From assembly GCA_927797885.1 (NCBI GenBank), contig OV696605.1, forward strand, positions 1,277,157 to 1,341,156: DNA of 64,000 nucleotides, read 5' to 3'. The number at the start of each line of letters is the position of its first letter. The first letter of the stretch is position 1. Shown here in pieces: positions 44,171 through 60,539 of the stretch. Both the position numbers and the translations under genes were made by a program. The DNA is from Gloeomargaritales cyanobacterium VI4D9. GTDB lineage: Bacteria > Cyanobacteriota > Cyanobacteriia > Gloeomargaritales > Gloeomargaritaceae. The notes below the pieces were generated by a model, which worked only from the letters and a program-made list of their open reading frames with translations, ran no database searches and had not been told where the DNA came from.

Positions 44171-44255
44171 CGGAGAGGGAGGGATTCGAACCCTCGGAGA
44201 CTCGCGTCTCGCTCGATTTCAAGTCGAGTGCATTCGACCACTCTGCCACCTCTCC
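44171..44255 (-). tRNA. tRNA-Ser (anticodon UGA)
   Basis: Read leftward, the 85-base gene folds as a class II tRNA. The acceptor stem GGAGAGG pairs with CCTCTCC plus G discriminator. The anticodon stem CTCGA/TCGAG carries the loop CTTGAAA (anticodon TGA at 44219-44221). There is a long variable arm CGAGACGCGAGTCTCG and a T-arm GAGGGTTCGAATCCCTC. CCA is not encoded. Confidence 0.95.
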
Positions 44256-56332: not shown

Positions 56333-56488
56333 CCCCGGTTCCCGTTTGGTTCGCACTTCAGCCTACCGCAATTTGGAGAAGTGTAAACCATTCCCCCAGT
56401 TCCCAGTGCGTTTTTTTATATCCCCCAATTATCCAAAGACAACTCTTCCGGGTTGACCCCCAGCTTATTCATTTTCATTTCATTTTTA

Positions 56489-56618
56489 GGGCACCTTTAT
56501 TATTTACTGGAACCAACCGGTAACCTGGGTGGCGTAGCCATCAATCCCATTGTGGGAATGCCCGTATTCCCCAGAACCAAGGGCGGGGGTGCCCCCCTGC
56601 GACCCCTGTTCTAAATTA
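56489..56618. repeat. hybrid repeat with family-C left end and family-A-like core
   Basis: Starts GGGCACCTTTATTATTTACT and includes GGGGTGCCCCCCTGCGACCC and CTGTTCTAAATTAGG like family A. It sits directly upstream of the putative mgtA promoter. The right boundary is unclear. Confidence 0.55.
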
Positions 56619-56626
56619 GGAAGTGA

Positions 56627-56656
56627 TTGACACGAAACAATTTTTTAGATTACTTT
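56627..56656 (+). promoter_or_regulatory. candidate promoter of the mgtA locus
   Basis: A perfect -35 TTGACA (56627-56632) is followed after 18 bases by TACTTT (56651-56656), a weak -10. If used, the transcript would carry a leader of about 0.9 kb before mgtA. Only the -35 is convincing. Confidence 0.45.
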
Positions 56657-56714
56657 ATTAAAGGCATCAAGTTGTTTTGTTGCTGACCCTCGACCACGTA
56701 AGGAGGTAAATGGT

Positions 56715-56852
56715 ATGGACGTTCCTGGCAGTAGTAGTTGCATAGCTACTTTGCGAGAATCTGTCCCTTCGGATGAAGACCCCTTCCAGAGTTCCTGCTG
56801 TGGTCAGTGGACGATTGAGCAGATGAATTTACCTGATTTGGTTCTGGTTTAG
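56715..56852 (+). CDS. small leader ORF 1 of the mgtA locus (45 codons)
   Basis: An ATG at 56715 lies 8 bases after a perfect AGGAGG (56701-56706). The 45-residue product (MDVPGSSSCIATLRES...) contains an acidic, proline-bearing stretch PSDEDPF and a SSCCG cysteine pair. It has no membrane helix or family I know. Its stop is followed within 8 bases by the first strong RNA helix of the leader. In enterobacteria, Pro/acidic codons in the mgtL leader peptide make translation Mg2+-sensitive. A similar role here is inference from position and composition only. A competing ATG at 56710 gives just 11 codons and sits too close to the AGGAGG. Confidence 0.55.
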   Translation: MDVPGSSSCIATLRESVPSDEDPFQSSCCGQWTIEQMNLPDLVLV

Positions 56853-56860
56853 AGCCTGTA

Positions 56861-56915
56861 GGTTCATCTCTGGTCGCCGCTGGGCACGGCGATTGTACCC
56901 ATAAGGAGATGAGCC
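56861..56915 (+). promoter_or_regulatory. SD-sequestering stem with internal hairpin and pseudoknot potential
   Basis: GGTTCATCTC (56861-56870) pairs with GAGATGAGCC (56906-56915) over 10 bp with one G-U. Inside it TCGCCG/CGGCGA form a second 6-bp stem, whose loop bases TGGG can pair with CCCA at 56898-56901. The outer 3' strand includes part of the AAGGAG ribosome site and ends at the ATG of leader ORF 2 (56916), so folding would shut that start. Confidence 0.65.
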
Positions 56916-56945
56916 ATGAAAAGTTTTGAATCCCCCTTCTGGTAA
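56916..56945 (+). CDS. leader ORF 2 of the mgtA locus (9 codons)
   Basis: ATG with a strong ribosome site (AAGGAG, 7-base spacing) encodes MKSFESPFW and stops. It is far too short for a folded protein, but the ribosome site is good and is masked by the helix 56861-56915. Both facts fit a regulatory leader peptide. It may be chance; no conservation can be tested here. Confidence 0.4.
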   Translation: MKSFESPFW

Positions 56946-57031
56946 CATTTTTTGCACCCCCATTGGAAAGAATGGCGAGTGCTAAATGAGGCACAAACGC
57001 TTTCTTGGGTGTGTTTTTAAGTGAATCCCGT

Positions 57032-57202
57032 ACAGCATTTTGACAACTTGTGAGGTGCAGGGGTAATTGGTAAACCTTTGTCCTCTCGTTGATTGGGATA
57101 ATGCTGTGGGTTTACTGCCGTTTCTCTAGGGCTGAAGCGGTAGATGGTTGGTGGTAAAACTTCGGGCAATTAATCTGTAATTTGCCATCAATTTACCATC
57201 AA
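57032..57202 (+). promoter_or_regulatory. structured RNA leader upstream of mgtA (possible riboswitch-like element)
   Basis: Three strong long-range pairings are visible. ACAGCATT (57032-57039) is perfectly complementary to AATGCTGT (57100-57107). GTAAACC (57070-57076) is complementary to GGTTTAC (57109-57115), interleaved with the first so that they form a pseudoknot or alternative folds. TTGGTGGTAAA (57148-57158) pairs with TTTACCATCAA (57192-57202) over 11 bp with one G-U, enclosing a GGCAATT/AATTTGCC hairpin. CTGCCG/CGGTAG sits between them. I cannot match this to M-box or another named class. Position in front of mgtA suggests Mg2+ control. Confidence 0.6.
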
Positions 57203-57360
57203 TGATTTATTGCTTTGCGATTAAGAGAAGCGGACTGGTTCCGATTCCGTTTGGGCTGTCAAAACGGGTTAGTTTTTCATGTCTAAATGTTGAACGTTTA
57301 AGTTCTCAGCCCCATTAATTTTTGCTAATTTCCAATTTTTTGGTGAATGGAGGTGAGGTC

Positions 57361-57513
57361 ATGTTTGAAATCTGTCTGTCCTGCGCTTTTGCCGAAGCAC
57401 TCGTGGGAATCACCCTAACCGACCTATTGGCTGTCACGCTGGGTCATATGTTGCTGGTTGCCTATGAACACTCGATTGGCGATGTTTCCCGGCAGTTTTT
57501 CTCTAAAACCTGA
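57361..57513 (+). CDS. small one-helix membrane protein upstream of mgtA (50 aa)
   Basis: The ATG at 57361 follows a strong GGAGGTGAGG ribosome site. The 50-residue product begins MFEICLSCAFAEALVG, has one hydrophobic helix (ALVGITLTDLLAVTLGHMLLVAY) with an embedded His and Asp, and ends in a charged tail (EHSIGDVSRQFFSKT). It has a CxxC-like ICLSC near the N-terminus. No known family comes to mind. It lies 71 bases before mgtA in the same direction and is very likely cotranscribed. Small membrane proteins that modulate Mg2+ ATPases exist in enterobacteria (MgtR, MgtS), so a regulatory subunit is a reasonable guess, not a finding. Confidence 0.7.
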   Translation: MFEICLSCAFAEALVGITLTDLLAVTLGHMLLVAYEHSIGDVSRQFFSKT

Positions 57514-57584
57514 AACTGTTTGAATTGGTTGTTTGGTTTGGAAATGTTTGCAAATCCACCCTTTGCGTTAAAAGGAGGTCAATG

Positions 57585-60320
57585 ATGCGGAATGCGCCCA
57601 GCCCCACCCGCCGCCGGGGTAATGCCAATGAACGTGCCTTGGAAAATGCCCGACTGTCCTTGCGTGCCCTACAGGAAGCGAGCAGTAGCGTTGAGCAGGT
57701 GTTGCTCTCTCTGAGTAGCCATCGGCAGGGACTCACTGAGTTGGATGTGGTTAATCGCCTGCGCCAGTACGGTAAAAACGAAGTGACCCACGAAAAGCCC
57801 CCCACCTGGTATGTGCAGTTATTCAAGGCGTTCAACAATCCCTTTGTCTGGATTTTGGTGGTCTTGGCGGCGGTTTCCTATGTGATGGACTATGCCCTAG
57901 CGGAGCCGGGGGATGGCGACCTGAAAACGGTGATTATTCTGTCCGTCATGGTGCTGGTGAGCGGTTTCCTGCGGTTTTTCCAGGAATACCGTTCCACCCA
58001 GGCGGCAGAAAAGCTGAAAGCTCTGGTCAGAACGACGGCTACGGTGATTCGCCGTGATCACCGCGGTTCTCCGGGAGTGCGCCGGGAGGTGCCCCTGAGC
58101 GACCTGGTTCCGGGGGATGTGGTGGCGTTGTCGGCGGGGGATATGATTCCGGCGGATGTGCGGCTGTTGACTTCCAAGGATTTGTTCGTGAGTCAGGCGG
58201 TGCTGACCGGGGAATCCCTGCCGGTGGAAAAGTACGACACCCTGGGTAGCGTGGTGGAAAAACGGGCAAATGTGCAGGTGCCCTCGGATCAGGTGAGTGC
58301 CTTGGATACACCCACCGTTTGCTTCATGGGTACCAATGTGGTGAGCGGCACCGGGACGGCGGTGGTCGTTTCGACGGGGGATCGCACCTACTTCGGTTCC
58401 CTGGCGAAAAACATTGTGGGCAAGCGGGTGCTTACTAGCTTTGAACAGGGGGTCAACCGGGTTAGTTACCTGCTGATCACCTTCATGGCGGTGATGGTGC
58501 CGATTGTTTTTCTCATTCAATGGGTGACTAAAGGCAATCTTCTCGATGCCCTGCTGTTTTCCCTGTCCATTGCCGTCGGGCTAACCCCGGAAATGCTCCC
58601 TATGATCGTGACCGCCAATCTCGCACGGGGCGCAGTCGTCATGGCGAATCAAAAGGTGGTGGTCAAACGGATCAATGCCATTCAAAACTTTGGGGCGATG
58701 GATGTGCTTTGTACGGATAAAACGGGTACATTGACCCTGGATAAGATCATTCTCGAACGCCATGTGGACATTCATGGTCAGGAAGATGAGGAACCCCTGG
58801 AATATGCCTACCTGAATAGCTACTACCAGACGGGCTTAAAAAACCTGCTGGATGCGGCGGTGCTGGAACACGTGGAATTAAATACGGAACTCAAACCGGC
58901 GGAAAACTACGCCAAGGTGGATGAAATTCCCTTTGATTTTGTGCGGCGGCGGATGTCGGTGGTGGTGGAACCGCAGGGGGGACACGCAGAAAGTAAGCAT
59001 ATCTTGATTTGCAAAGGGGCGGTGGAGGAACTGTTCAACGTTTGCTCCCATGCCAAATATCACGGCGAAATCATCCCCATGAGTGAGGCTGTGCGGCGGG
59101 AAGGACTGCAAGTGACCCAAAGCCTGAATGAGGACGGGTTTCGGGTGATTGCCGTCGCCTACAAGGAGATTCCCATTCCGTTGGACAAGGTTCCCACCTA
59201 CGGCACCCAGGATGAATGTGATCTGGTTTTAGTGGGGTATCTAGCCTTTCTCGACCCGCCCAAAGATAGTGCGATTGAGGCGATTAGGGCACTGCGGGAT
59301 AACGGTGTGACGGTGAAAGTGATCACGGGCGACAACGATATTGTCACGCGCAAAGTCTGCAAGGAGGTGGAACTGGCGGTAGAAGGCGTGCTGGTAGGTA
59401 GCCGGATTGAACGGATGAGCGATGCGGAATTAACCGCCCAACTGGACACCACCACCATCTTTGCCAAAGTTTCTCCCCTGCAAAAAGCCCGCATTATCCG
59501 GCTGTTGCGTGAACAAGGGCATACGGTCGGCTACATGGGCGATGGCATTAACGATGCGGCGGCACTGCGGGATGCGGATGTGGGTATTTCGGTGGATACC
59601 GCCGTAGATATTGCCAAAGAATCGGCGGACATTATCCTGTTGGAAAAAAATCTCATGGTATTGGAGCGGGGTGTCATTGAGGGGCGGCGCACCTTTGCCA
59701 ACATTCTCAAATACCTGAACATGACTGCCAGTTCCAACTACGGCAACGTGTTCAGCGTCATGGGATCGAGTGCGGTATTGCCCTTTTTGCCCATGCAACC
59801 CATCCAATTACTCACCCAAAACCTGATCTACGACCTATCCCAAACCACCATTCCCTTTGACAATGTGGATCAGGATTTTCTCCGCCGACCCCAGAAGTGG
59901 AATGTGCCCAATATCGGGCGGTTCATGCTGTTTATTGGTCCGATTAGTTCCATTTTTGACTACGCCACCTACATCGTTATGTGGTTTGTGTTTGGAGCAA
60001 ATACCCCAGAAGAAGTAAAACTGTTTAATTCCGGTTGGTTTGTGGAAGGGCTGTTGTCGCAAACCCTGGTGGTGCATATGTTGCGGACGGCACGGGTGCC
60101 CTTTGTGCAAAGCTGGCCCTCTCTGCCGGTGTTGCTTTCCACGGGTACTGCCATCATCGCCGGGATGATCCTACCGTTCACGCCGCTGGGGGCAGGCTTA
60201 GGGATGGTACCGCTACCGGCTCGATATTTCCTGTGGCTGTGGTTCATTCTTGGCTCCTATTGCCTGTTGACCCAATACCTCAAGGGGTTTTATATCCGCA
60301 CCTTTGGCAAGTGGTTGTAG
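57585..60320 (+). CDS. mgtA: magnesium-translocating P-type ATPase (MgtA/MgtB type)
   Basis: A P3B ATPase that imports Mg2+ across the inner membrane when it is scarce. The ~911 residues have an N-terminal basic segment, TM1-2 (FVWILVVLAAVSYVMDYAL), the actuator TGES (LTGESLPVEKY), the subclass-specific TM4 motif VGLTPEMLPMIV, the phosphorylated Asp378 in CTDKTGTLTLDK, the hinge TGDN and MGDGINDAAALRDADVGI, and a ten-helix C-terminal region. These are the MgtA/B hallmarks. AAGGAGG lies 6 bases before the ATG at 57585 (an adjacent ATG at 57582 is also in frame). It is preceded by a long structured leader and small ORFs and followed by another small membrane protein. Confidence 0.95.
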   Translation: MRNAPSPTRRRGNANERALENARLSLRALQEASSSVEQVLLSLSSHRQGLTELDVVNRLRQYGKNEVTHEKPPTWYVQLFKAFNNPFVWILVVLAAVSYVMDYALAEPGDGDLKTVIILSVMVLVSGFLRFFQEYRSTQAAEKLKALVRTTATVIRRDHRGSPGVRREVPLSDLVPGDVVALSAGDMIPADVRLLTSKDLFVSQAVLTGESLPVEKYDTLGSVVEKRANVQVPSDQVSALDTPTVCFMGTNVVSGTGTAVVVSTGDRTYFGSLAKNIVGKRVLTSFEQGVNRVSYLLITFMAVMVPIVFLIQWVTKGNLLDALLFSLSIAVGLTPEMLPMIVTANLARGAVVMANQKVVVKRINAIQNFGAMDVLCTDKTGTLTLDKIILERHVDIHGQEDEEPLEYAYLNSYYQTGLKNLLDAAVLEHVELNTELKPAENYAKVDEIPFDFVRRRMSVVVEPQGGHAESKHILICKGAVEELFNVCSHAKYHGEIIPMSEAVRREGLQVTQSLNEDGFRVIAVAYKEIPIPLDKVPTYGTQDECDLVLVGYLAFLDPPKDSAIEAIRALRDNGVTVKVITGDNDIVTRKVCKEVELAVEGVLVGSRIERMSDAELTAQLDTTTIFAKVSPLQKARIIRLLREQGHTVGYMGDGINDAAALRDADVGISVDTAVDIAKESADIILLEKNLMVLERGVIEGRRTFANILKYLNMTASSNYGNVFSVMGSSAVLPFLPMQPIQLLTQNLIYDLSQTTIPFDNVDQDFLRRPQKWNVPNIGRFMLFIGPISSIFDYATYIVMWFVFGANTPEEVKLFNSGWFVEGLLSQTLVVHMLRTARVPFVQSWPSLPVLLSTGTAIIAGMILPFTPLGAGLGMVPLPARYFLWLWFILGSYCLLTQYLKGFYIRTFGKWL

Positions 60321-60395: not shown

Positions 60396-60539
60396 ATGAA
60401 TTTCAATGTTTTAGAGAATCCATTGGCAGCCCTTTTCGCTGTTGCCGCTATTTTCATCGGCTACTATGCCTTGATTTATTTCATCGTGGTAGTGCTGATG
60501 AAACAGGGCGTTCCCCAACAGCGCCGACCCCGTTATTGA
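60396..60539 (+). CDS. small membrane protein downstream of mgtA (47 aa)
   Basis: The ATG at 60396 follows AGGAGAG with a good spacing. The product (MNFNVLENPLAALFAVAAIF...) has one long hydrophobic helix through residue 36 (IGYYALIYFIVVVLMK) and a basic tail (QQRRPRY), predicting an inward-facing C-terminus. It starts 75 bases after the mgtA stop. No family is recognised. Helix length, ribosome site and position make it a credible gene and a possible partner of the ATPase. Confidence 0.72.
   Translation: MNFNVLENPLAALFAVAAIFIGYYALIYFIVVVLMKQGVPQQRRPRY

Follow-up and report, generated by a model that had tools for sequence, protein, structure and literature searches.

Sensing of Mg2+ through the stability of the ribosome on an acidic peptide has so far been described for enterobacteria, in the literature cited here. 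In the enterobacterial mgtA leader, ribosomes are destabilised on the EPDP codons of MgtL when Mg2+ is low (PMC11282234). In the Salmonella mgtCBRU operon, the acidic codons of mgtQ and a set of exclusive stems unmask mgtB (PMC8092293). The leader considered here precedes the mgtA gene of Gloeomargaritales cyanobacterium VI4D9, in a stretch of 64,000 nt that was analysed as a whole (the window; positions refer to it, and all features lie on its + strand). As in mgtL, a short leader ORF with acidic and proline codons (Ser-Asp-Glu-Asp-Pro, codons 19-23) stands before a P3B Mg2+ ATPase. As in mgtQ, there are two exclusive stem sets, here P1 and P3, which compete for positions 56861-56870 and one of which masks a ribosome-binding site. 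The very short peptide of mgtL starts with EPDP, whereas the peptide in the window is 45 aa long and carries its motif at codons 19-23, not at the start.

The functional core of the mgtA leader is window 56627-56945, which holds the promoter, the leader ORF (ORF1) and an RNA switch at the ORF1 end. The predicted promoter (56627-56656) is composed of a -35 box TTGACA (56627-56632), an 18-nt spacer and a -10 box TACTTT (56651-56656). In 30 of 31 loci, ORF1 is preceded by a TTGAC -35 box and a TANNNT element that are 16-19 nt apart, with 47-95 nt between the end of the -10 box and ORF1. Because the promoter boxes sit just upstream, the predicted transcript has ORF1 as its first ORF. The initial annotation had seen no mgtL-like ORF at the 5' end of the leader; in spirit this does not hold, as ORF1 occupies that place and carries the acidic-proline codons. 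ORF1 (56715-56852) encodes the putative leader peptide MDVPGSSSCIATLRESVPSDEDPFQSSCCGQWTIEQMNLPDLVLV, as suggested by profile matches in relatives, conserved motifs and the ratio of substitutions. Its sequence is preceded by the Shine-Dalgarno element AAGGAGG (56700-56706), and a similar site precedes most ORF1 homologues.

Within the PSDEDPF stretch of ORF1, the Ser-Asp-Glu-Asp-Pro codons (56769-56783) are the proposed ribosome-destabilising motif. An acidic cluster occupies this position in nearly all of the 30 aligned ORF1 peptides, usually with proline next. The peptides also have GSSS in common and differ in length by whole codons, and both length and C-terminus vary freely among homologues. 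In the N-terminal half, pN/pS is ~0.53, which is moderate evidence from codon comparison that ORF1 is coding. The acidic-proline stretch is probably the sensor, a role suggested by the destabilisation of ribosomes at the EPDP codons of MgtL (PMC11282234). ORF1 is degenerate or stops early in a few loci (L021, L026, L085, L103, L074/75 and L077). In Pleurocapsales LEGE 06147 (L105:6100-6400), an N-terminal fragment of a P-type ATPase replaces the 5' part of ORF1, and the switch before mgtE is kept.

The pseudoknot-capable RNA is located at the end of ORF1 (56821-56915), around a shared strand GGTTCATCTC (56861-56870) that can pair either in P1 or in P3, the two being mutually exclusive. P1 joins positions 56862-56868 in 7 bp to GATGAAT (56822-56828), which overlaps the Met-Asn codons of ORF1. 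The ORF1 codons just after P1 contain the 5' side of the pseudoknot, UACCU (56830-56834; UGCCC in most relatives). Its other side is the loop GGGCA (56882-56886) of the P2 hairpin GGTCGCC-GCTGGGCAC-GGCGATT (56872-56894), and the window copy of the pseudoknot has one mismatch. A further hairpin, P1a (GGTTC..GAGCC, 56840-56856), is formed round the ORF1 stop codon. P2 is compatible with both P1 and P3. In P3, the shared strand pairs in 10 bp with GAGATGAGCC (56906-56915), which overlaps the Shine-Dalgarno sequence of a second short ORF, ORF2. For the window sequence, the calculated energies are -30.3 kcal/mol for the P1 fold (state A, without the pseudoknot) and -34.7 kcal/mol for the P3 fold (state B), so that the two states, 4.4 kcal/mol apart, are predicted to be close in energy.

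Conservation of these pairings was evaluated for P1, P2 and P3 on 32 hand-anchored composites (A5), with anchors set per ORF1 codon alignment where possible; compensatory changes in these helices and in the pseudoknot were scored over 27-32 sequences. In P1, 92.2% of cells are paired, a value reached by 1 of 500 shuffles, and both-side changes occur in 5 of 7 pairs (covariation score 0/500). P2 displays 94.6% paired cells and 23 both-side changes (0/500), and P3 91.6% paired cells with both-side changes in 6 of 10 pairs (0/500). When the partners of these helices are slid, pairing drops to ~12-69%. The loop-loop pseudoknot is paired in 80.7% of cells, against 38-41% when slid, and its 12 both-side changes compare with 4.15 for shuffles (0/2000). 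The corresponding numbers for P1a are 13 both-side changes against 4.8 (0/2000). In an unforced MAFFT alignment, P1 is 94.8% paired with both-side changes in 3 pairs (5/500 shuffles), a weaker support than that given by the hand-anchored columns. At one locus (L021), all three P1/P3 strands are altered in concert, and at others (L029, L103, L026) the RNA part is retained where the ORF1 frame is lost.

This location differs from that in the initial annotation, which had placed pseudoknot-capable RNA at 57032-57202. The two interleaved complementarities named there (57032-57039 with 57100-57107, and 57070-57076 with 57109-57115) exist letter for letter, but at chance level, with 2 perfect 8-bp complementarities observed against 1.16 expected from shuffles (p 0.30). 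The second one is broken in the sister genome G003 (GGTTTAC to AGTTTGC), where the 3' arm of the proposed 11-bp helix (57148-57202) is deleted as well. The region was rejected as unconserved. Better founded were the two short ORFs with strong ribosome sites, AAGGAGG at 56700 for ORF1 and AAGGAG at 56903 for ORF2, and the 10-bp helix that encloses one of them, since the ORF2 site pairs with 56861-56870.

Searches at several depths place the element in a limited part of the cyanobacteria. With blastn against 59 genomes, the leader matched four other families, in a stretch limited to ORF1 and its immediate 3' flank, with ~71-80% identity where alignable. An ORF1 profile matched 22 of 390 genomes of the class at E<=0.01, the weakest one or two matches being judged chance. 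A covariance model (A4, R1) built only from the RNA after ORF1 (P2/P3) found 23 of the 390, including loci outside its building set. Among its new loci, those of G333 and G382 carry ORF1 peptides (G382 with IDEESEPEPEPAN), and those of G002, G028 and G183 carry a degenerate ORF1; all five precede mgtE or mgtA. A larger covariance model (R2) returned no genomes beyond those known. Taken over all searches, the element is present in 26 of 390 class genomes from 13 families (f1, f5, f10, f13, f16, f22, f23, f24, f26, f28, f32, f35 and f40). This distribution is patchy, as most cyanobacteria, congeneric species included, are without it.

When 84,980 species genomes were scanned with a pattern, 24 stretches matched, 13 in photosynthetic cyanobacteria and 11 elsewhere. 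All of the former have ORF1 and/or a Mg2+ transporter, or are loci found before; carriers include Fischerella thermalis PCC 7521, Arthrospira sp. PCC 9108, PCC 7702, Nodularia, Cyanocohniella and Pleurocapsales LEGE 06147. The remaining 11 belong to unrelated bacteria and to one gastranaerophilalean; they have neither the acidic-proline leader ORF nor a downstream MgtA or MgtE, and were judged chance. The same verdict was reached for weak ORF1-profile matches without ORF1 context in G110 and G249:C1:3409749 and for a 37-nt match in G040. The match in G154, at an RNA-binding protein gene without ORF1, was judged false.

The genes downstream of the element could be read at 33 loci. Three loci that run into or close to a contig end (in G044, G363 and Nodularia) are outside this number, as are PCC 7702 and a third copy in G149. 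The genes read are mgtA (12 loci), mgtE (17), an Nramp-family gene (1) and others (3), so that 30 of 33 elements lead to one of these transporter families. The downstream gene in G055 and G048 is mgtE instead of mgtA, and MgtC (PF02308) comes next in many loci. The three exceptions are an mgtA operon without mgtA (G185 contig 8), an operon that is broken off (L104) and the false match in G154. Nramp-related Mg2+ transporters exist (PMC4072509), and the Nramp-family gene at the element (PF01566) is a candidate Mg2+ transporter. In G149, one copy of the element (L045) precedes an mgtE split into several frames. Judged by comparison of these loci, the element is real and conserved, and its conserved features comprise ORF1, the helices and their mutual exclusion, the position of the promoter and the linkage to Mg2+ transporters.

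In the window, mgtA (57585-60320) starts at ATG 57585, with an alternative ATG at 57582. Its product is a P3B Mg2+-transporting ATPase by TIGR01524 (1269.8 bits; NCBIfam cutoff 610.75) and PRK15122 (1380.6 bits), in agreement with the initial annotation. The 50-aa membrane-like ORF noted upstream was also found to be conserved. This small hydrophobic protein, smA (57361-57513), has a homologue of 57% identity at the equivalent position in another family (L041), followed there by a second small ORF, smB. Altogether, smA (50 aa) and smB (47-59 aa) represent two small hydrophobic families between leader and mgtA in several cyanobacterial families (57361-57513, L041:911-1060, L041:1100-1276, L036:1215-1388). 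Directly 3' of mgtA lies smC (60396-60539), a small hydrophobic protein of 47 aa with homologues of 71-91% identity after mgtA in other families; it is a candidate partner of MgtA. Comparison of smA and smC with Pfam and NCBIfam models gave no match above cutoff. The operon on G185 contig 8 (L041) has the full leader, smA, smB and smC, and mgtA is missing between smB and smC.

Upstream of smA, a second conserved block, CCGTTT..AAACGGGTTAGTTTTTCATGTC (57247-57282), can be aligned in several families. In relatives, this block is often followed by GAAAAATTAGCC, lies upstream of smA/smB and has inverted repeats. The MgtA protein itself is 90% identical to copies from other cyanobacterial families (L036, L038), which suggests horizontal transfer of the whole leader-mgtA cassette.

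In the window, the ribosome site masked in P3 belongs to ORF2 (56916-56945), which encodes the 9-codon peptide MKSFESPFW, and a short ORF with an ATG just 3' of P3 is present in many loci. Several mgtE loci have no ATG after P3, so that their output step may be different. Only in G002 does the site masked in P3 belong to the transporter gene, the masked ATG being the start codon of mgtE; this speaks for translational control, although P1 cannot be made out clearly in G002. The transporter gene often begins 0.3-0.65 kb downstream of the element (~1.9 kb in G333), a gap across which masking of one ribosome site would alone be insufficient to explain control. Rho-dependent attenuation, as in mgtL, was rejected for want of a strong Rho, since no protein of this genome scored above cutoff (best match 21.5 bits against 509.45). 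An intrinsic-terminator attenuator, with a hairpin and U-run after the switch, was rejected because such terminators follow the element no more often than in shuffles (8 of 26 loci; 9.1 expected). Both results fit a translational output.

We give a probability of roughly 60% to the reading that 56627-56945 is a cis-regulatory leader for Mg2+ transport with a translated ORF1, the 3' end of which forms half of a two-state switch. In state A, the 3' end of ORF1 would pair with the shared strand (P1) and contact the P2 loop through the pseudoknot, leaving the downstream ribosome site free. In state B, the shared strand would pair with this ribosome site (P3) and mask it. State A would form first on the nascent RNA. 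With sufficient Mg2+, ribosomes would complete ORF1 and clear P1 and the pseudoknot, allowing state B to form and turning the system off. At low Mg2+, ribosomes may lose their stability on the Ser-Asp-Glu-Asp-Pro codons, which lie ~40 nt before P1, and fall off the message. State A would then stay, and the masked site (ORF2 here, mgtE in G002) would be translated, so that the transporter is made. In this scheme we infer the response to Mg2+, the loss of ribosomes when Mg2+ is low, which way the switch works, and the effect of ORF2 translation on a transporter gene 0.3-0.65 kb away.

The same anatomy could also be explained by a direct Mg2+ riboswitch, in which the compact P1-P2-pseudoknot fold binds Mg2+ and sets the balance between states A and B, with ORF1 incidental or tuning. 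The compensatory changes of the loop-loop pseudoknot would agree with this, as would the persistence of the RNA part where the ORF1 frame is lost, but the start, ribosome site and acidic-proline motif of ORF1 are retained in nearly all loci, with a pN/pS of ~0.53. Moreover, a state A stabilised by Mg2+ would expose the ribosome site, the opposite of what an uptake gene needs, unless the output were inverted. We regard a direct riboswitch as unlikely. A leader-peptide switch that senses another signal at Mg2+ transporter genes, for example the charging of tRNA with proline, ATP or a general stress on translation, also has a low probability. Such signals would have a precedent in Salmonella, where ATP and charged tRNA-Pro are the signals of mgtM and mgtP (PMC8092293), and ORF1 peptides do contain proline codons. 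However, these peptides do not have many copies of proline, whereas their acidic cluster hardly varies, and the targets include unrelated transporter families tied to Mg2+.

It is quite improbable that ORF1 and ORF2 are primarily functional small proteins co-expressed with the transporters, the pairings being secondary features of the mRNA. The helices argue against it, since they show both-side changes and two of them exclude each other; so does the conservation of RNA beyond the frame, as does the free variation in length and C-terminus of ORF1, even though its N-terminus is conserved and the operon has other conserved small proteins (smA, smB, smC). Hardly any weight is left for a horizontally spread cassette without regulation, whose leader would be conserved just by recent transfer. 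The 90% identity of MgtA between different families would be expected from such spread, but leaders are only ~71-80% identical where alignable by blastn and have many compensatory changes, and the element precedes unrelated transporter genes. Covariation and the exchange of downstream genes already contradict an explanation by transfer only.

Returning to the Mg2+-sensing leader with a translated ORF1, we think it rather probable that it represents an undescribed and independently evolved class, combining an acidic-proline peptide with a pseudoknotted two-state switch. This class would operate in apparently Rho-less cyanobacteria and control MgtA, MgtE and Nramp-type transporters, three unrelated families, together with MgtC and new small membrane proteins. 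A new class of Mg2+ leader had been the headline of the initial annotation; it gains support from comparison, as the element is deeply conserved with compensatory changes, is linked almost exclusively to Mg2+ transporters and has no Rfam or M-box match, although the anatomy given for it was largely misplaced. At gathering score, Rfam 15 detects only a tRNA-Ser (44171-44255) in the whole window, and nothing in the leader. The reported lack of an M-box was upheld, as RF00380 is found neither at gathering score in the window nor among E<=10 matches in 56380-57700, and is absent from 59 cyanobacterial genomes in a search that detected its controls. Other Rfam matches at E<=10 in the leader (AbsR25, miRNAs and others) lie far below gathering score and are of chance type.

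Chlorophyll and Rubisco make Mg2+ central to cyanobacteria. In the open-licence literature searched, we found no description of a cyanobacterial mgtA or mgtE leader or of ribosome destabilisation in cyanobacteria. If true, the proposed class would be a first candidate for Mg2+ control of genes in these organisms. It would also point to convergent evolution and to a general principle of the ribosome as Mg2+ sensor. Since the element marks Mg2+ genes, it can aid annotation of Nramp-type and small-protein partners.

Among described systems, structured RNAs at Mg2+ transporter genes are similar in part. The M-box (RF00380) is likewise a leader RNA of Mg2+ transporters, and in M. tuberculosis it has a ribosome-masking output on a small upstream ORF (PMC12810186), but it has no leader-peptide sensor. 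The mgtE motif SRC-65-1, a riboswitch candidate, also precedes mgtE as a structured RNA and takes in the ribosome site, but is found only in Thioalkalivibrio, one proteobacterial genus (PMC11109978). The mgtM/mgtP leader of Salmonella mgtCBR resembles the cyanobacterial one in its two leader ORFs, its alternative stems and its place ahead of Mg2+ genes, mgtC among them; its reported signals are ATP and charged tRNA-Pro, its output is transcriptional and the sequences are unrelated (PMC3641672).

The likeness extends to mgtL and mgtQ. The leader of enterobacterial mgtA also has a first ORF with early acidic and proline codons, alternative folds and a P3B Mg2+ ATPase downstream (PMC11282234). 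The cyanobacterial leader differs from it in its unrelated sequence, the pseudoknot, the second masked ORF, the lack of a strong Rho and its presence before mgtE and an Nramp-family gene as well. MgtL is 17 aa long, against 45 aa for the ORF1 peptide. For mgtQ, the likeness consists of acidic codons in a short ORF and of stem-loops that exclude each other, with a ribosome-binding site masked by one of them, whereas mgtQ has 8 aa, lies between genes directly before mgtB and has stems 1:2 and 3:4 as its off state, so that the stem logic is not identical (PMC8092293). The element would act like mgtL and mgtQ yet belongs to neither by sequence, peptide length or output. The cyanobacterial leader has the ingredients of both in a different order, for which the shortest reading would be that ribosomes drop off at SDEDP, P1 persists and the downstream site is unmasked.
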